Part shown: one piece after another, positions 32,439 through 40,594 of the stretch
How the letters are laid out: each line of letters opens with the position of its first letter
Numbering within the stretch: the stretch's first letter is position 1
Assembly (NCBI RefSeq): GCF_001571005.1
Contig: NZ_BCST01000002.1
Location: 248,001 to 312,000 of the forward strand
DNA length: 64,000 nucleotides
Direction of reading: 5' to 3'
From: Herbiconiux solani NBRC 106740
GTDB taxonomy: Bacteria > Actinomycetota > Actinomycetes > Actinomycetales > Microbacteriaceae
Made by a program: the position numbers and the translations under genes
The notes under the pieces: model-generated
Told to the model about the DNA's origin: nothing
Databases searched by the model: none
The model's input: the letters and a program-made list of their open reading frames with translations, nothing else

Positions 32439-33734
32439 TCACGGGCACGGGGTCAGGGCCTGCACCGCTGGCGACAAGGTGGACGGCCCTCCCAGAAGAA
32501 CGACCTCCGAAGGTGCCAGGTGGTAGATGGCCGTCAGGACGCTCGACGGGATGCAGCCCGTCGGCACGATGAACAGCGGGCTGTCGTCGTGTCCGGCGGC
32601 CGCACCGCCGCTGAGCGCATCGGCGAATCCGACACCGCTGGCCACGTAGACCCGGCCCGACGAGGTGAAGGCCTCGTTCACGGCCACTCCCGTGGCGTAG
32701 CGGTCGGGCCCGTTGACCCGCGGCCCGATCCCGCCGTCCGGATTGATCGTCGTGGAAGCGCTCCGGGCGAGCTCACCGGTGAAGGAGGCCGGACCTCCGA
32801 CGACGTGGGCCGAGGTGAATCCACTGGACTGGAAGAAGCTCATCTCCGCAGGAGTGAGGGACGTGCTTGCGCCATTCAGCAGCAGCACCGATTGACCCGT
32901 GTGGGTGGCTGCGGGGCCGGCGGTCAAGGCGTCCGGGAAGCCGAGACCAGAGACCAGAGTGGGCGCTTTGGAGGCGGAGTTGCCGAAGAGGGGATTCGCA
33001 AGGAGATTTCGAGAGACCGCGTAACGGTCTTCACCGACGATGCGGGTGACCCGGGCGCCCGTCGTCGCGAGCTGAGCCTCGACCGCCGGCGAGAGCGTCA
33101 GGGCACCCCCGACCAGGGCGATGTCCGTGGCGCCCAGCCGCCTGATCTCCGCCAGGACCTCTGCCGGCACCGCGCCCGACTGCGCGAGAAGGATCGGTGC
33201 GTCATGGATACCGGCGACGCCGGAGGCACTCAGCGCGTCAGCGAACTTCTCGCCGCTCACGACGTACACGATCGGCGACGCCATGAACATGCGCGCAGAG
33301 GTCGCCACCGCGGTCTGGTAGCGGTCCGCACCCTCGATGCGGGTCACCGTCGGCTCCGCCTTGACGAGCATCTGGCAGATCGTGTCGCGCTGGCCGGTGG
33401 AACCGTCTTCACGAGGATACGAGCTCGTGACGACGAAGTTGTAGGTGCCCACTGCCGTCGGGGTGCCCGCGTACTCGAAGTCGTTGTTGAGGATGAGCTC
33501 GGGAGGGAGCGGCCCGTTGACTCGAACCGTCCCGATCGGCTTGTCGCGCGCCGGCGTGAGCGGGATGGGATGACCGACGATCGCTGCGCGCGGGCAGAGC
33601 GGAGTGACGACGTTGTCGGCGGCCTCCGCCGCCGGTGCGCCGACCACGCTGAGACCACCGGCGAGCAGCAAGGCGGCGGCTGTGGAGGCGATGGCTCGTC
33701 TCAGTGTGAGGTGCGAGGTGAGTGCAGGGATCAT
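32439..33734 (-). CDS. Secreted cell-wall-binding-repeat protein (CW_binding_2), paralog A
   Basis: A 431-residue secreted protein: signal peptide ending AEAA near residue 39, a small Ig-like domain (GTPTAVGTYNFVVT) bracketed by Cys47 and Cys120 that may form a disulfide, then three cell-wall-binding type 2 repeats. Repeats are marked by RIEGADRYQTAV, RIVGEDRYAVSR and RVNGPDRYATGV together with VYVVSGEKFADALS, LVSGLGFPDALT and VYVASGVGFADALS. The C-terminus has a Cys pair (CIPSSVL and LTPCP). Repeats of this kind are known from clostridial Cwp proteins. No enzyme domain is seen. A 17-bp inverted repeat lies 63 bp upstream. Confidence 0.88.
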   Translation of the reverse strand: MIPALTSHLTLRRAIASTAAALLLAGGLSVVGAPAAEAADNVVTPLCPRAAIVGHPIPLTPARDKPIGTVRVNGPLPPELILNNDFEYAGTPTAVGTYNFVVTSSYPREDGSTGQRDTICQMLVKAEPTVTRIEGADRYQTAVATSARMFMASPIVYVVSGEKFADALSASGVAGIHDAPILLAQSGAVPAEVLAEIRRLGATDIALVGGALTLSPAVEAQLATTGARVTRIVGEDRYAVSRNLLANPLFGNSASKAPTLVSGLGFPDALTAGPAATHTGQSVLLLNGASTSLTPAEMSFFQSSGFTSAHVVGGPASFTGELARSASTTINPDGGIGPRVNGPDRYATGVAVNEAFTSSGRVYVASGVGFADALSGGAAAGHDDSPLFIVPTGCIPSSVLTAIYHLAPSEVVLLGGPSTLSPAVQALTPCP

Positions 33735-33797
33735 GGGGTGTCCGATCGCCGAAGGGTCTTTTCACCCATGCTGGCGGAGGAACACCGCACCCCCTCG

Positions 33798-33814
33798 TGA
33801 GCAATTGCTACTCA
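33798..33814 (-). promoter_or_regulatory. Shared 17-bp inverted repeat upstream of paralog A
   Basis: TGAGCAATTGCTACTCA (plus-strand reading) fits TGAGYA-N5-TACYCA and contains a 10-bp perfect palindrome AGCAATTGCT when read on the minus strand. It begins 64 bp before the start codon of the gene ending at 32439. Confidence 0.65.
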
Positions 33815-33831
33815 ATTGCCGCTAGCCGGAA

Positions 33832-34539
33832 CTATGACCAGAGCGTCGAGATCGACTCTGCAGGGGTTCCCGTCGGCTTGTCGAGACCAGCACCATCGAA
33901 GACGGCGGGAGCAGGGCCACGGGCGGACTCGCGGGCGAGGATGGCCGCCAGGCCGACGAGCCAGGCGAGGGCCACGGTCGTCGCCACGAGTTCCAGGATG
34001 CCGCCGAGCTGCGTCGCGAGCTGGAGGAGCGAGAGGATGCCGCCGAATCCCGCGATGACCGCGACGACGACCGCCGAGACGAGGGAGAAGCGAGCGAGGC
34101 GGCGGAAGCGGCGGTCGGCCGCCGCCTGCAGCATCACGAGGGCGGCCGCGGCGAAGCCGATGACCGCGCAGACCGTGTGGATCAGGTCCTGCCAGGTGAA
34201 CGCCGCGCCGACCGGCAGCGGGCAGTAGCGCGTGCAGGTGACCTGCGACGCGATGCCGAACATGAGGCCGGCCACGAGGAGGACGATCGACGACGGCACG
34301 AACGCGAGCCATCGCATCCGGGGTCTGAGTCGAGGCGCCGCCAGGGCGCACACGATCGCCGAACATGCGACCAGTGTCATGGCCACCCGGAACACGCCGG
34401 CGGTCGGTTCGCCCGTCGCGCCGAGCTCGCTGACGTAGAGGAAGCGGTCGGCGCCGAGGCGGGCGACCCAGATGAGCACGAGACCCGAGCCCGCCAGAAG
34501 CGCAGCCATCGAGAGCCCGATCGTGCGCAACGTGCTCAT
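33832..34539 (-). CDS. DUF998-type membrane protein
   Basis: A 235-residue protein with six predicted helices. RYCPLP in the loop after helix 3 and the IHTVCAVIGFAAAAL helix fit the DUF998 family (formerly related to Frag1-like/DsbB-like six-helix proteins). CTRYC gives a Cys pair in the outer loop. Function is unknown. It lies between two cell-wall-binding-repeat genes but lacks the 17-bp repeat found upstream of those. It is divergent from the quinone-reductase-like gene. Confidence 0.75.
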   Translation of the reverse strand: MSTLRTIGLSMAALLAGSGLVLIWVARLGADRFLYVSELGATGEPTAGVFRVAMTLVACSAIVCALAAPRLRPRMRWLAFVPSSIVLLVAGLMFGIASQVTCTRYCPLPVGAAFTWQDLIHTVCAVIGFAAAALVMLQAAADRRFRRLARFSLVSAVVVAVIAGFGGILSLLQLATQLGGILELVATTVALAWLVGLAAILARESARGPAPAVFDGAGLDKPTGTPAESISTLWS

Positions 34540-34767
34540 GGCGGTCTCGGGGCTTCCTGCTCGGACGGCCGGATGCAGGCCGAAGTCACTGAAGCGTACG
34601 ACGTCTGTCGCGAGTTTGCACCCCAGTGACCTGACCGTAACACCGGTGAATCATTCACCCCATAACGTGAGGATCAGCCGACAAGGCGACGCAGTGGAGC
34701 GGGAGCCCGAGCCCCCTGGTGTGTGACAGAAGCTGTTGTGTGGCCGAGACGACCGGAAGGGCTGACG

Positions 34768-35793
34768 ATGATCGAGCAATGGAGTGGATCGTCGAGGACA
34801 TCGAGTCCGACACTCACGCACCCGAAGACCATGCGCGCGGCGGTGCTCGCCGAGTTCGGGGCGCCGGACGCGTTCCGGATAGCCGAGGTCCCGACCCCCG
34901 TTCGGATCAACGCCGAGGTGCTCGTCAAGGTCGCTGCCGCCGGCGTTAATCCGATCGACGCGAAGACGCGGGCCGGGAAGGGCGTGGCCGACGCGGTCAC
35001 CTCCCTTCCGTGCATCCTCGGGTACGACTTCGCCGGTGTGGTCGTCGAGATCCCGTTCGCAGGGCATCCGCTGAACGTCGGCGACGAGGTCTTCGGCATG
35101 ATGTCGACCCCGCGGGGCGAGGGCTCCTACGCCGAGTACGTCTCGGTGCCGAGCCTGCAGGTCACCCGGACGCCCAAGACCTTGTCCCTCATTGAGGCGG
35201 GCGCCGTGCCTCTCGCGGCCCTGACCGCCTGGGGGCTCGTCGTCGATCTCGCCAAGGCGCACGAGGGGCAGCGGATGCTCATCACCGGCGCCTCGGGTGG
35301 CGTCGGCCACTTCGCGGTGCAGTTCGCCTCGTACTTCGGGGTGAGGGTCGCGGCGACGGCATCGGCCCGCAACCAGGCCTGGCTGCGCGAGCTCGGCGCG
35401 AGCACCGTGCTCGACTACGACCTAACCGGTTGGGAGGACCAGCTCTCGGATCTCGATGTCGTGGTGGACCTCGTCGGCAACACCGTCGACGACACCGGGC
35501 GGCGCGCGCTCACGACGCTGCGGCCCGGAGGTCTCATGGTGAACGCTCCGACGGGCAGCTGGCCGACCCTCGACGAGGAGGCGGCCGAGGCGGGCGTGCG
35601 CGCGACTACCTTCAAGGTGGCTCCGGATGCGGCGACCCTCGCCGTCGTCGCCCGGCTCATCGACTCGGGCGACGTGCGCGTGCACATCGACAAGACTTTT
35701 CCGCTCGCCGACATCGCCGCGGCCCATGCCAGCCTCGAATCCGGCCACACGCGCGGCAAGCTCGTGCTGCAGATCGGCGAGCTGCCCTTCTGA
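34768..35793 (+). CDS. Zinc-free medium-chain dehydrogenase/quinone oxidoreductase-like protein
   Basis: A 341-residue NADP-dependent MDR family enzyme: MRAAVLAEFGAPDAFRIAEV start, NPIDAKTR, GYDFAGVV, GDEVFGM, the nucleotide loop ITGASGGVGHFAVQFA and the end GKLVLQI. No zinc ligands are present, so it belongs with quinone oxidoreductase/enoyl reductase-like members. ATG 34768 has GGAAGG 7 nt before it and adds a 21-residue tail to the conserved start at Met22; translation from 34831 is the alternative. Physiological substrate unknown. Confidence 0.87.
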   Translation: MIEQWSGSSRTSSPTLTHPKTMRAAVLAEFGAPDAFRIAEVPTPVRINAEVLVKVAAAGVNPIDAKTRAGKGVADAVTSLPCILGYDFAGVVVEIPFAGHPLNVGDEVFGMMSTPRGEGSYAEYVSVPSLQVTRTPKTLSLIEAGAVPLAALTAWGLVVDLAKAHEGQRMLITGASGGVGHFAVQFASYFGVRVAATASARNQAWLRELGASTVLDYDLTGWEDQLSDLDVVVDLVGNTVDDTGRRALTTLRPGGLMVNAPTGSWPTLDEEAAEAGVRATTFKVAPDAATLAVVARLIDSGDVRVHIDKTFPLADIAAAHASLESGHTRGKLVLQIGELPF

Positions 35794-35840
35794 GGCCTGG
35801 CCGGTGGTGCCCGCCACCACGGGCGCCGTCAGGTTCACCG

Positions 35841-36935
35841 TCACGGACACGGCGTCAGCGCCTCGACCGCGGGAGTGAGCGTCAGCGGGCCACCGAGCAC
35901 GACGATGCGAGTCGGGTGGAGCCGGACCAGGTCGTCGAGCACCGCCTGCGGCACGCAGTTCTGCTGCACCACGTAGAGGGGCGCGCGATCGTGAGCGGCG
36001 AGCGGTCCGCCGCTCAGCGCATCCGGAAACGACATCCCGCTGGCCAGATAGGCCGTCGTGGCTGCGCCGAAGGCGAGCTGGTTGATGCGCACGCCGGTCG
36101 AGTACCGGTCCGGCCCGCTCACCCGTCTCACGGTTCGGGACGTCGCGAGAGCGGCCTCGAGCTCTGCGCTCACAGTCGACGTGCCGCCGACGACGTCGAC
36201 CTGATCCACACCTCGCGTGTCGAGCAGGGCGAGTTCGGCATCGGTCGGCCGGGGTTCTGACCCGTCGACGAGGAGGACCGGCGAGCCCGAGCTGCTGGCC
36301 GCGGGTGCCGCGGTCAGGGCATCCGGAAACGACGCTCCCCCGGCGAGATGGATGCGCGACGACGCCGGTGCGCCCACCGCGCCGTCACCGATGAGGGCCC
36401 GTGATACCTCGAACCGGTCCGCGCCGGCCACGCGGATCACGGTGGACCCGGCACTGGCCCGGGAGAGCTGGTCCATCACCTCGTCCGACAGGGTTCTCTC
36501 GCCGCCGACGACGACGATCACGTCCGGGGCGAGACGGTTGAGTTCGGTGGCGGTACTGACAGGGACGCTGCGCGCCATGGTCAGCAGGAGCGGAGCATCC
36601 CTGGTCGCGGCGACGGATGCGGCGGTCAGCGCATCCGGGAACGCCTCGCCGCTCGCGACGTAGACCAGCTCGCTCTGGGTGAAGCCGAGCGAGCGGGACG
36701 CGAGGGCGGCCTGGGCGTAACGGTCGGCGGCCGCGAGCCGTTCTGGGACGGGGAGGACGCGTCGCGCCGCAGAGACGCCCCCACCGGGAGTCGCAGCCGC
36801 ACCCACCCCCACACCCGCGGGCAGCGGTGCCGCCGTGGCTCGGGCCACCGATGCAACAAGCCCTGGCGCCCCGAGCATCAGCGCACCGAGTGCAAGGACG
36901 AGCAATCGGTGCCAGGCCGGCCGACCGGGGGTCAT
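35841..36935 (-). CDS. Secreted cell-wall-binding-repeat protein (CW_binding_2), paralog B
   Basis: A 364-residue secreted protein with a signal peptide (hydrophobic residues 10-30, ARATAAP) and three cell-wall-binding type 2 repeats marked RLAAADRYAQAA, RVAGADRFEVSR and RVSGPDRYSTGV. Unlike the other three paralogs it lacks the N-terminal Ig-like domain and goes straight into the repeats. The C-terminal Cys pair is kept (CVPQAVL and LTPCP). The 17-bp inverted repeat lies 59 bp upstream. It is convergent with the quinone-reductase-like gene. Confidence 0.86.
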   Translation of the reverse strand: MTPGRPAWHRLLVLALGALMLGAPGLVASVARATAAPLPAGVGVGAAATPGGGVSAARRVLPVPERLAAADRYAQAALASRSLGFTQSELVYVASGEAFPDALTAASVAATRDAPLLLTMARSVPVSTATELNRLAPDVIVVVGGERTLSDEVMDQLSRASAGSTVIRVAGADRFEVSRALIGDGAVGAPASSRIHLAGGASFPDALTAAPAASSSGSPVLLVDGSEPRPTDAELALLDTRGVDQVDVVGGTSTVSAELEAALATSRTVRRVSGPDRYSTGVRINQLAFGAATTAYLASGMSFPDALSGGPLAAHDRAPLYVVQQNCVPQAVLDDLVRLHPTRIVVLGGPLTLTPAVEALTPCP

Positions 36936-36994
36936 AAGCGGGGGTTCGACGAGTTCATGGCACGATCATCGCCCGCAACGCTCGAACGGCGGTA

Positions 36995-37011
36995 TGAGCA
37001 ATCATTACCCA
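36995..37011 (-). promoter_or_regulatory. Shared 17-bp inverted repeat upstream of paralog B
   Basis: TGAGCAATCATTACCCA (plus-strand reading) is the most divergent copy but keeps both half-sites TGAGYA and TACYCA. It begins 60 bp before the start codon of the gene ending at 35841. Confidence 0.6.
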
Positions 37012-37066
37012 CCGCTGTCGGCGGCGGGTTCCTCACCGTCCAGCCCCAAGGCGGGCGATCGGATGC

Positions 37067-37621
37067 TTACGCCGAAGCGTCCGTTCTGACCGGAAGCACC
37101 CGCTCGAAGACGAAGTCGTCGTGGAGTTCGTCACCGACGAGGAACGTCTTGACGCCGACCCGCTCGAAGCCGCTCTTCTCGTAGAAGCGCTGAGCCCGCT
37201 CGTTCCGCTGGTTGACGCCGAGCCAAATGCTCACCGCGCCCGCCTCGGCGGCGGCCTCCATCGACGCCTCCATGAGTGCCCGGGCCACTCCGTGCCCGTG
37301 GAAGTTCGCGCGCACATAGCACTTGCTCAACTCCGCGGTGGGCCGGTTGCGAACGGCCTGTACGACGTTCTCGTCAGCCGGGTCGCCGAGGATCACCAGG
37401 GTGTAACCGGCGATCTCGCCGTCGACGTCGGCGAGCAGAACGATCGCGCTGTCGGTCGAGAGATACCGGGTGAACTCGGCCTCGGACAGGTTCGCGGCGA
37501 TGAACGAGGCGATGGACTCGGGCGCGGTGCCGGGAGGGCAGGCGAGCTCGAACGTCTCCGCTGCGACGGCGGCGACGATTCTCGCGTCTTCCGGACGTGC
37601 CCGGCGAACCCTCGTGACCAT
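37067..37621 (-). CDS. GNAT family N-acetyltransferase
   Basis: A 184-residue acetyltransferase: RRARPEDARIVAAVAAETF start, AELSKCYVRANFHGHGVARALMEASM with the acetyl-CoA loop (R/HGHGVA, a Q/RxxGxG variant) and QRNERAQRFYEKSGFERVG as the C-terminal motif. The substrate is unknown. ATG 37621 is chosen; a GTG two codons upstream is also possible. It is between two cell-wall-binding-repeat genes on the same strand, with a terminator hairpin before it, so it is probably transcribed separately. Confidence 0.85.
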   Translation of the reverse strand: MVTRVRRARPEDARIVAAVAAETFELACPPGTAPESIASFIAANLSEAEFTRYLSTDSAIVLLADVDGEIAGYTLVILGDPADENVVQAVRNRPTAELSKCYVRANFHGHGVARALMEASMEAAAEAGAVSIWLGVNQRNERAQRFYEKSGFERVGVKTFLVGDELHDDFVFERVLPVRTDASA

Positions 37622-37689
37622 GTTCACAAACTACCCGGACTTGCCGTTTCCGCCCCGCCGCCGAACCGCTTCCCGACAGAACGATGAAG

Positions 37690-37717
37690 AACGCCCGGCC
37701 ACGACGGGCCGGGCGTT
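37690..37717 (-). terminator. Terminator hairpin after paralog C
   Basis: AACGCCCGGCC, a 6-nt loop and the exact complement form an 11-bp stem ending in TT, 63 bp after the stop of the gene at 37780-39051 and before the acetyltransferase start. Confidence 0.7.
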
Positions 37718-37779
37718 CCAGGTCGGAGGCCGCGCTCAGTCGCGCGGCTCGGACGTGCGTCTCAGACGTGCGCCTCAGG

Positions 37780-39051
37780 TCAGCAGGGCTTCAGCATGTC
37801 CACCTGCGAGCTGAGCGTCGCATCGCCGCCGAGGATGACGATCTTCGTCGGCTCGAGCCGCACGATCTCCTGCAGCACCGGCTTCGGCACGCAGTGCTTC
37901 TGGACCAGGTAGACCGGGGCGCCCTGCTCGCCGGCGACCGGGGCGGCACTGAGCGCATCCGGGAACACCTCGCCGCTGGCCAGGTAGAACGTCGAAGCGG
38001 TGGTGAACGCCTGGTTCACCGCGACCGCGCCGCTGTACCGGTCGGGGCCGCTCGCGCGGGTGACCGAGAACAGATCGGCGCCCAGCGAATCCTGGATGCC
38101 CTGGCTCACCGTGAGCGGGCCGCCCGCGATGCGGACCGTGGTCGTGCCGAGGTCGGTGAGGAGGCCGATCTCCGCCGGCGTGGCCGCCGTGGCGGTGCCG
38201 TCGACCAGCAGGACCGGCCCGTTGACCGCGATGGCGGCGGGCGATGCAGCGAGCGCGTCAGGGAAGGTGTTGCCCGCAGCCACGTATACCTCGGTCGCTA
38301 CCGGCACTCCGAACATCGGATCCGCGATCAGGGCGCGGGATCCGGCGTAGCGGTCGGCACCCCAGACCCGCGTGACCGTCGCGTCACCGAAGGACGCGGT
38401 CAGGTCGGCGACCACGGCCTCGGACACGGACGCCGCGCCTCCGACCACCACGATGTCATCCGGCGACAGCCTCGTCAGCTCCGCACGGGTGCTCGCAGGC
38501 AGCGCGCCCGCCTGGGTCAGCAGCAGCGGTGCCCCCTGCACCCCCGCGACCGATCCGGCGCTCAATGCATCGGCGAACTTCTCGCCGCTGGCGACGTAAA
38601 CCAGGTTCGATCCCATAGTGAACTGCGACGCCGACACCTTGGCCGCCTGGTCGTACCGATCGACCCCCTGGATGCGCGTCGGCGTCGGCGCGGTCTTCAC
38701 CGTCATCATGCAGACCATGCTCTCGGCCGGAACGTCCTCCTTCTGCACCGTCAGGGTGAAGGTGGTCATGCCCGCGGTGGTGGGTGTTCCCGAGAAGGTG
38801 TTGCCGGTGAGCGTCACGCCGGGCGGCAGGGAGCCCACTGACACCGATGCGACGGCCCGCGCATCCACCTCGGACAGAGCGCTGGACGGCACCAGGTCGA
38901 TCCCGCGGTACGCCGTGGCCTGAGGACACACCGGCCCGGCGCCGATGGCGAAGGCCGCCCCGGCGGGTGCGGCGACCGCGAGAGCGGCGAGGGCGACAGC
39001 GCCAAGAAGAGCGCCGCGATGAAGGCGGGAAGGAAGAACAGAACGAGTCAC
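37780..39051 (-). CDS. Secreted cell-wall-binding-repeat protein (CW_binding_2), paralog C
   Basis: A 423-residue secreted protein. A signal peptide ends near AGAAFA; a Cys-bracketed Ig-like domain follows (CPQATAYRG, then FSGTPTTAGMTTFTLTV, then MVCMM). Three cell-wall-binding type 2 repeats carry RIQGVDRYDQAA, RVWGADRYAGSR and RASGPDRYSGAV with LVYVASGEKFADALS, VYVAAGNTFPDALA and FYLASGEVFPDALS. The C-terminus has CVPKPVL and MLKPC. The 17-bp repeat lies 73 bp upstream. The domain plan matches paralogs A and D. The upstream DNA shares a module with that of D, pointing to tandem duplication. Confidence 0.88.
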   Translation of the reverse strand: MTRSVLPSRLHRGALLGAVALAALAVAAPAGAAFAIGAGPVCPQATAYRGIDLVPSSALSEVDARAVASVSVGSLPPGVTLTGNTFSGTPTTAGMTTFTLTVQKEDVPAESMVCMMTVKTAPTPTRIQGVDRYDQAAKVSASQFTMGSNLVYVASGEKFADALSAGSVAGVQGAPLLLTQAGALPASTRAELTRLSPDDIVVVGGAASVSEAVVADLTASFGDATVTRVWGADRYAGSRALIADPMFGVPVATEVYVAAGNTFPDALAASPAAIAVNGPVLLVDGTATAATPAEIGLLTDLGTTTVRIAGGPLTVSQGIQDSLGADLFSVTRASGPDRYSGAVAVNQAFTTASTFYLASGEVFPDALSAAPVAGEQGAPVYLVQKHCVPKPVLQEIVRLEPTKIVILGGDATLSSQVDMLKPC

Positions 39052-39124
39052 GACGGATCACTTTCGGGAGAAGAACACGGGAACGGGTTCTGTCATCCTG
39101 TGTGCTCACCGCCCCCGAGCGTTA

Positions 39125-39141
39125 TGAGTACTTCCTACCCA
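39125..39141 (-). promoter_or_regulatory. Shared 17-bp inverted repeat upstream of paralog C
   Basis: TGAGTACTTCCTACCCA (plus-strand reading) fits TGAGYA-N5-TACYCA. It begins 74 bp before the start codon and is flanked by GTTA, as is copy D. Confidence 0.65.
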
Positions 39142-39153
39142 CCAACGCAGAAT

Positions 39154-39175
39154 GGGCCCGCCGTGAGGCGAGCCC
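39154..39175 (-). terminator. Terminator hairpin after paralog D (copy of the rplA terminator)
   Basis: GGGCCCGCC, loop GTGA, GGCGAGCCC: a 9-bp stem with one mismatch, 23 bp beyond the stop of the gene at 39199-40503. It is the near-identical counterpart of the hairpin at 40621-40648. Confidence 0.65.
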
Positions 39176-39198
39176 TTCCGCGAACAGACGCAGTGTGG

Positions 39199-40503
39199 TC
39201 AGTCGGTCTTACAGACGTTCAGGGTGTCGAACCCGGCGCCGAGCGTTCCGGTGCCACCCAGGATGACGACCTTGGACGGAGCCAGACGACCGATCGTCTG
39301 AGCCGCATCCACGCCCAAGCACAATGCCGAGCTGATCACCAGCGGCGAACCCTTCGCGCCGGCAGCAGCCCCACCGGTCAGCGCGTCGGGGAAGACCTCA
39401 CCGCTCGCGAGATAAACGGTGTCGGCGGTCGTGAACCCCGCGTTGACGGCGGCACTCGTGGTGTAGCGGCTCGCTCCGGCCCGGCGGGTGGTGGTGAATC
39501 CCTTGGCCAGCTCGGTCTGCAGGCCGGCGCTCACCGAGGCCTCGCCCCCGACGATGACCGCGTTCTTCGCGGCCAGATCGGTGAGGATCGCCTTCTCGTC
39601 GGTCGTGAGGACCGTCTCGGCCCCGTTCACCAGCAGCACCGGCGCACCGGTGAGTGCCGCAACGGGCGCAGCGCTCAAAGCGTCGGGGAAGGAGGCGCCT
39701 GTCGTGACGAACACGTCGTCCGAGGTCGCGATTCCGAAGTCGTCGTTCGCGATGAGGGCGCGGGAGACGGCGTAGCGATCGACCCCTCCGATGCGCGTGA
39801 CATCGGTGGCGTCCGGCAGTGCGGCCTCGAGCGTCAGGATGACGTCATCGGAGACGGTCAGAGGACCACCCACGATGACGACGTCAGCCGGGTCGACGCG
39901 CTTGATCTCGGCGAGGACCGATGCGGGGATCGCCCCCGCCTGGGTGAGCAGCAGCGGCGCCTTCTTCTCACCGGCGATCGCCGCGGCGCTGAGTGCATCC
40001 GGGTACTTCTCGCCGCTCGCGAGGTAGACCACGTCGGCACCGGTCGGGTAGGTCGCCTTCGACACCTGGACGCTCTGGTCGTACCGATCCGTACCCGCCG
40101 TGCGCGTGACCGTCGGGGCAGCCTTCACCTCCATGGTGCAGGTCACCTGCTTCTCGACGGGCATGCCCATGTCGTCCAAGCCCTGCGCCTTCAGCATGAA
40201 GCTCGACATCTGCGTGTGCGCGGCGACGCCCTTGATCACGCCGTTGAGGTCGACGATGCCGTCGGGGTACTCCCCGGTGCGGACGACCGTGAAGCCGGCA
40301 TCCGTCGCCGCCTTGTCGAGGGGCGAGACCGGAATGATCGGAAGGCCGGCCGAGGCCACCGCCTGAGGACAGATCGGCGTGGGCACCATGAACGGCGCGG
40401 CCGAGGCGGACTGTTCGGCGAGAGGAGTGGCAGACGCGGCGAGGACGAGCGCCAGACCGGCACCGATCATGAGGCGCGGGTGCTGGAGCGAGAGGGATGA
40501 CAT
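39199..40503 (-). CDS. Secreted cell-wall-binding-repeat protein (CW_binding_2), paralog D
   Basis: A 434-residue secreted protein. A signal peptide with SASA cleavage near residue 34 is followed by CPQAVASAG and VTCTM, the Cys pair of an N-terminal domain. Three cell-wall-binding type 2 repeats carry RTAGTDRYDQSV, RIGGVDRYAVSR and RRAGASRYTTSA with VVYLASGEKYPDALS, VFVTTGASFPDALS and VYLASGEVFPDALT. The end has CLGVDAA and LNVCKTD. The 17-bp repeat lies 74 bp upstream. It is the first of the cluster after the rplK-rplA operon, with that operon's terminator between. Confidence 0.88.
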   Translation of the reverse strand: MSSLSLQHPRLMIGAGLALVLAASATPLAEQSASAAPFMVPTPICPQAVASAGLPIIPVSPLDKAATDAGFTVVRTGEYPDGIVDLNGVIKGVAAHTQMSSFMLKAQGLDDMGMPVEKQVTCTMEVKAAPTVTRTAGTDRYDQSVQVSKATYPTGADVVYLASGEKYPDALSAAAIAGEKKAPLLLTQAGAIPASVLAEIKRVDPADVVIVGGPLTVSDDVILTLEAALPDATDVTRIGGVDRYAVSRALIANDDFGIATSDDVFVTTGASFPDALSAAPVAALTGAPVLLVNGAETVLTTDEKAILTDLAAKNAVIVGGEASVSAGLQTELAKGFTTTRRAGASRYTTSAAVNAGFTTADTVYLASGEVFPDALTGGAAAGAKGSPLVISSALCLGVDAAQTIGRLAPSKVVILGGTGTLGAGFDTLNVCKTD

Positions 40504-40577
40504 GGACGGGCCTTCTTCTTCAGGGGGTATCGAATGGTTGACGTCCGATCATCCCCCGGCCTGGCGAGCCACCGTTA

Positions 40578-40594
40578 TGAGCAATTTCTACTCA
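40578..40594 (-). promoter_or_regulatory. Shared 17-bp inverted repeat upstream of paralog D
   Basis: TGAGCAATTTCTACTCA (plus-strand reading) fits TGAGYA-N5-TACYCA and is flanked by GTTA as in copy C. It begins 75 bp before the start codon. Confidence 0.65.

Follow-up and report, generated by a model that had tools for sequence, protein, structure and literature searches.

A recurrent 17-bp palindrome at surface-protein promoters of Herbiconiux and its candidate LAL-type activator

The LAL-type regulators met in the literature searched, a family of which MalT is the classic example, are linked to antibiotic clusters, and CW_binding_2 (CWB2) repeats occur in the clostridial S-layer protein SlpA. 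In Streptomyces coelicolor, the two-component system MacRS is reported to control genes for membrane proteins of morphogenesis (PMC10345050). The present analysis concerns a 64-kb stretch of Herbiconiux solani NBRC 106740 (hereafter the window; the whole genome, of 3.85 Mb, is labelled G000), in which four CWB2 genes are each preceded by a copy of one 17-bp palindrome. We propose that this element, with the general form TGAGYA-N5-TRCTCA, would be the operator of an activator for surface and envelope genes in Herbiconiux, and that the most likely activator would be LAL-A, a protein with an AAA ATPase, a predicted helical middle and a GerE domain. LAL-A would respond to a signal and bind next to the -35 region, its centre lying about 45 bp upstream of the predicted start of transcription. 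From there it would recruit RNA polymerase to promoters whose -35 is poor and whose -10 is weak, as in class II activation. Taken as a whole, this explanation is probably correct.

LAL-A resembles LAL regulators in carrying its AAA_16 and GerE matches at opposite ends of 894 aa, and differs from the described ones in being linked to genus-wide surface genes and to a 17-bp palindrome. The window proteins have CWB2 repeats in common with SlpA but are short (364-434 aa), unlike clostridial S-layer proteins; the NCBIfam model S-layer_Clost matches residues 132-353 of the gene 4 protein with 73.7 bits, far under its cut-off of 650. In contrast to LAL-A, MacRS is a two-component system; its half-sites are similar to those of the Herbiconiux operator, with a spacing one base shorter. 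No description of this operator, of a Herbiconiux LAL regulon or of a regulator of actinobacterial CW_binding_2 genes was found in the literature searched, which left most subscription papers outside. The components are of known kinds, and the regulon and operator appear to be new.

The four operators of the window

The pattern TGAGYA-N5-TACYCA, reported in the original prediction as four 17-bp repeats, was found in exactly those four copies, against 0.01 expected from 100 dinucleotide shuffles, none of which reached four. An exact scan of the whole window found no additional copy, and relaxing the palindromic form to two mismatches gave 12 matches against 9.2 expected, that is, chance level. 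Read in gene direction, the motif is TGRGTA-N5-TRCTCA, a degenerate palindrome. All four CWB2 genes lie on the minus strand, at 63, 59, 73 and 74 bp from operator to start codon for genes 1 to 4, within the 59-74 bp originally given. All four proteins exceed the cut-off of PF04122 CW_binding_2 (24.9 bits) with 142-156 bits. The operators, the genes and the predicted -10 elements, the last placed by arithmetic, are as follows.

33798..33814, minus strand: operator 1, TGAGTAGCAATTGCTCA in gene direction
36995..37011, minus strand: operator 2, TGGGTAATGATTGCTCA in gene direction
39125..39141, minus strand: operator 3, TGGGTAGGAAGTACTCA in gene direction
40578..40594, minus strand: operator 4, TGAGTAGAAATTGCTCA in gene direction
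33768..33773, minus strand: predicted -10 CAGCAT, 24 bp past operator 1
36965..36970, minus strand: predicted -10 GATGAT, 24 bp past operator 2
39095..39100, minus strand: predicted -10 CAGGAT, 24 bp past operator 3
40548..40553, minus strand: predicted -10 GATGAT, 24 bp past operator 4
32439..33734, minus strand: CWB2 gene 1, 431 aa, secreted-type N-terminus; PF04122 142.3 bits in three stretches
35841..36935, minus strand: CWB2 gene 2, 364 aa; PF04122 151.3 bits in three stretches
37780..39051, minus strand: CWB2 gene 3, 423 aa; PF04122 155.5 bits in three stretches
39199..40503, minus strand: CWB2 gene 4, 434 aa; PF04122 153.6 bits in three stretches

Promoter geometry and recurrence of the operator

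In CWB2 promoters, the position of the operator relative to a -10-like element is nearly invariant. In a non-redundant set of 50 CWB2 promoters, from which those at least 70% alike had been removed, nAnnnT stands exactly 24 bp past the operator in 47, against 1.13 expected, with the next best position reaching 6; on the opposite side of the CWB2 sites it appears in 1 of 54. The same spacing is found in 41 of 95 non-CWB2 promoters (2.35 expected), a set that left out the DUF4193-like, SepH and LAL-A promoters and the sites with no called start within 260 bp. In the oriented alignment, two downstream peaks, an A and, four bases later, a T, correspond to positions 2 and 6 of a -10 element. Within G000, 8 of 10 sites show the 24-bp layout in one direction, namely the four window sites and those at loci L072, L073, L075 and L076, the last of them with no clear gene.

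Class II activators sit near -45, next to the -35 region, and the operator centre falls near -45 from the predicted transcription start; the fixed spacing, with the operator beside the -35 region in 47 of the 50 CWB2 promoters, therefore points to a class II layout. The first -10 position is a T in only 1 of the 50, and no good -35 was seen in them, from which we infer that these promoters depend on an activator. Activation through the fixed spacing is very likely. Genes whose start codon lies 36 bp past the operator would be leaderless, with the codon on the predicted transcription start.

Across G000, the pattern TGRGYA-N5-TRCYCA gave 10 sites, against 1 for the reversed control pattern, and not the many random matches that would have spoken against a regulon. 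Five sites precede CWB2 genes: the four of the window and a fifth at G000:C3:276969, which lies 36 bp upstream of the CWB2 start as read here. Another is flanked on one side by a divergent gene without family assignment and on the other by a gene for a secreted surface protein, whose matches to choice-of-anchor D and to a sortase-type tail stay under the cut-offs. A further site separates sepH (NCBIfam match) from a small gene that we take to be DUF4193-like, one precedes the large LuxR-type gene of LAL-A, and two (L075, L076) are near genes without interpretation. The genome holds 92 CW_binding_2 repeats in, by clustering, about 31 genes, most of them with three repeats, and the strict operator is found at 5 of the 31. 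When 30 repeat loci, which represent a smaller number of genes and in part stop short of the gene start, were scanned with a profile, the only operators detected stood at CWB2 genes already known to carry one. The operator therefore marks a subset of CWB2 genes, the regulon is not CWB2-wide, and an operator common to all CW_binding_2 genes was rejected.

The sites recur in the relatives: all 15 other Herbiconiux genomes tested have them, 8-15 each, with 0-3 for the control. The regions around all 158 sites of these genomes were fetched (168 with G000), using outside the window a home-made gene caller whose starts are approximate. A called gene start lies within 400 bp of 152 of the 168 sites; 16 have none, 5 of those being inside called genes. 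CWB2 proteins, detected with a hidden Markov model trained on 8 repeats taken from three of the window proteins, adjoin 53 sites (54 with the L072 start added by hand). SepH and the DUF4193-like gene adjoin sites in 16 of 16 Herbiconiux genomes, the surface protein does so as 16 proteins in 15 loci, with its divergent partner in 14 loci, and LAL-A adjoins 14 sites. Smaller groups are a secreted family of 330-343 aa beside 8 sites, one member of which was scanned and matches Vgb_lyase, a globin beside 4, and what are presumably peroxiredoxin-like (Bcp) and G6PD-like genes, beside 4 and 3. Signal-peptide-like N-termini, by a crude rule, occur in 60 of 207 genes adjoining sites, against 52 of 913 others.

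The original prediction had proposed one regulator with a regulon of secreted surface proteins. The 10 sites against 1 control, the recurrence in the genus and the separate -10-like element speak for such a regulator and a regulon rich in surface proteins, and that a regulon exists is virtually certain. Its membership turned out broader than proposed: the hit set includes secreted and CWB2 genes but is not confined to them, since it also takes in sepH, the DUF4193-like gene and the LuxR-type gene and, in a few species, globin and metabolic genes.

LAL-A as candidate regulator

The gene for LAL-A lies at G000:C6:232543-235221 and encodes 894 aa here, in a family of about 840-960 aa. The N-terminal ATPase was recognised by PF13191 AAA_16 (34.5 bits, cut-off 32.6) over residues 16-88 only, and the C-terminal GerE/LuxR helix-turn-helix by PF00196 (37.5 bits, cut-off 23.5) over residues 821-872, with a weak sequence match in the PDB to GerE (1fse). 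For the middle, a low-confidence model (mean pLDDT 59.3, pTM 0.35) shows mostly helices between residues 318 and 800, approximately, and a match to AbsR2 stayed below its cut-off.

The number of sites follows the presence of this gene. Among 398 family genomes, with orthologs accepted at E up to 1e-100 and the two best candidates per genome scored, 12 have a LAL-A ortholog, 11 of them Herbiconiux and the other G063, from another genus. Read by eye, the tight-pattern site counts in those 12 are 8, 11, 6, 10, 11, 8, 9, 12, 11, 8, 8 and 5, whereas of the 386 genomes in which LAL-A was not detected 116 have at least one site, 9 have three or more and the maximum is 5. Among 99 relatives, with nine candidates scored, all Herbiconiux genomes but one (15 of 16) gave the ortholog, as did G063 and, weakly, G032. 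The G063 protein shares 53% identity overall with that of G000 and 46 of 50 residues in the helix-turn-helix stretch, and its genome has 5 tight-pattern sites against 1 control; the loci with sites there include LAL-A, sepH/DUF4193 and the surface-protein pair. In the promoter of the DUF4193-like gene, G063 alone among 30 genomes of 29 genera has the operator, the others showing at least two mismatches over 330 bp. The 24-bp geometry occurs at 3 of 6 G063 sites. Where LAL-A was not detected, it occurs at 1 of 19 inspected sites, which come from 20 hand-picked regions of which four were not included. On these grounds LAL-A is the likely owner of the regulon.

The LAL-A promoter itself carries the strict operator (TGAGTARAACCTACTCA) in 14 Herbiconiux genomes and an N4-spaced form in G007; in G009 neither the gene nor the site at its promoter was found. 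Because the operator stands in its own promoter, the sequence suggests that LAL-A is autoregulated. These promoters also contain two direct CTACGYA repeats, 22 bp apart, at -64 and -42 from the operator (L074:8369-8397). The pair is present in 15 of the 15 Herbiconiux genomes with a LAL-A locus and again 22 bp apart in G063, and among 308 fetched loci it occurs at the LAL-A loci and once elsewhere (L088). A second regulator likely acts on LAL-A through this pair.

Beside LAL-A in this genome, the stretch L074:625-8000, between the gene and beyond a tRNA-Lys, contains small genes, an XRE-type regulator and an integrase-like gene and resembles an integrated element. At L114, L136 and L230, LAL-A is flanked by the presumed peroxiredoxin-like and G6PD-like genes, and at L114 and L136 each of the two has its own site, which hints at a connection with oxidative stress.

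Other readings of the sites

The same activator regulon could have another GerE-type protein, for example LAL-B, as its main binder, with LAL-A as a target or as a sharer of the sites; we consider this improbable, though deserving of some weight. LAL-B is a LAL-type LuxR protein whose gene neighbours one for a truncated globin; in four Herbiconiux genomes, operator-like sites lie 53-64 bp upstream of that globin gene. A related LAL/globin pair with an operator-like site is present in G163, G392 and G438, in which LAL-A was not detected. In addition, RTVDNHL in the recognition-helix region is common to LAL-A and Herbiconiux LAL-B, and G009 has sites with no LAL-A found. On the other side, site number tracks LAL-A over the 398 genomes, the 24-bp geometry was seen at 1 of the 19 sites inspected where LAL-A was not detected, and only 4 of the 16 Herbiconiux genomes showed LAL-B beside a site, with no genome-wide LAL-B search made. 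Because of the LAL-B sites and of the difference in geometry (1 of 19 against 3 of 6), more than one LAL may recognise half-sites of this kind, and the 24-bp layout would go with LAL-A.

Several observations weigh against LAL-A as the class II activator. The G009 genome has 12 sites yet no LAL-A was found in it, although the assembly is 92% complete and a gap is possible. Absence of LAL-A is not absolute elsewhere either, only the two (family) or nine (99 relatives) best candidates having been scored, and the co-occurrence comes mostly from one clade (one genus plus one genome), a small effective sample. With the looser pattern, G063 shows 6 sites against 5 control. Two genomes in which LAL-A was not detected, G018 and G163, reach 5 sites each: in G018, 2 of the 5 tight sites are inside a called gene and no surface-gene pattern was seen, while in G163 three of the 5 precede secreted-type or globin genes, one of the three being beside a LAL-B-type gene, and another of the 5 is inside a called gene. 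An operator-like site also stands 53-68 bp before a truncated globin gene with a LAL-type LuxR neighbour in several genera (L295, L296, L301, L096, L097, L182, L191). Finally, the SepH, DUF4193-like and LAL-A promoters lack the 24-bp geometry, and class II activation does not explain their regulation.

This last point is what favours binding by a repressor, the operator being out of activator position at LAL-A and at sepH/DUF4193. Such a reading is unlikely in view of the exact 24-bp spacing, the poor -35 and the single first -10 T among the 50 CWB2 promoters. As the binder, a NarL-type response regulator akin to MacR of Streptomyces is a still weaker candidate. The MacR consensus, TGAGTAC-NN-GTACTCA, has the same half-sites, and the LAL-A site of G007 is N4-spaced; nearly all sites are N5, however, by construction, as an N5 pattern was scanned genome-wide.

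It is, if anything, less credible still that the repeat merely belongs to a sigma promoter, standard or alternative, a possibility that had been raised at the outset. TAAC follows the operator near the -35 position in 35 of the 50 CWB2 promoters, but the motif is palindromic and recurs at promoters with other geometries, the -10-like element stands apart from it, and many promoters with the 24-bp spacing have no TAAC, for which reason a sigma-only promoter was rejected. HspR, of the MerR family, can be practically dismissed as the binder: its HAIR element, with the core TGAGT-N7-ACTCA, has the identical core spacing, but the CT/AG flanks are missing at the regulon sites (of 160 oriented sites, 15% have a T just before the motif) and a full CTTGAGT-N7-ACTCAAG stands separately in G000 before a Clp ATPase gene.

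If LAL-A is the activator, it could be, as an ATPase-type LuxR sensor, the switch of a lineage-specific surface coat drawn from a varying stock of CWB2 and sortase-type proteins and tied to cell division through the sepH/DUF4193-like site, which genes would join by promoter capture; this extension is tentative, and we would not favour it over its negation. Under promoter capture, surface genes would join singly, each acquiring an operator placed 24 bp upstream of its -10, and the process would change the outer face of the genus. CWB2 proteins are numerous in G000. With the operator defined, the transcription starts predicted to the base and a candidate regulator named, a surface-protein programme becomes testable. 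The regulon may also be an instance of a large LuxR ATPase paired with a surface-gene set that spans the genus and, at the DUF4193-like gene, of an operator that an otherwise conserved promoter has only in the genome where the presumed regulator was found (1 of 30 genomes).

Two further elements were noted among the fetched loci. The full HAIR-like element of G000, CTTGAGTTGACCTGACTCAAG, lies at G000:C3:279276 (L040, L072), before what is presumably a ClpB/Clp ATPase gene. In addition, in five genomes of one other genus (L289-L293), the sequence TGAGCAATCCGTGCTCA stands 51-65 bp before a gene that we take to be flgB-like, at the head of what is presumably a flagellar cluster.

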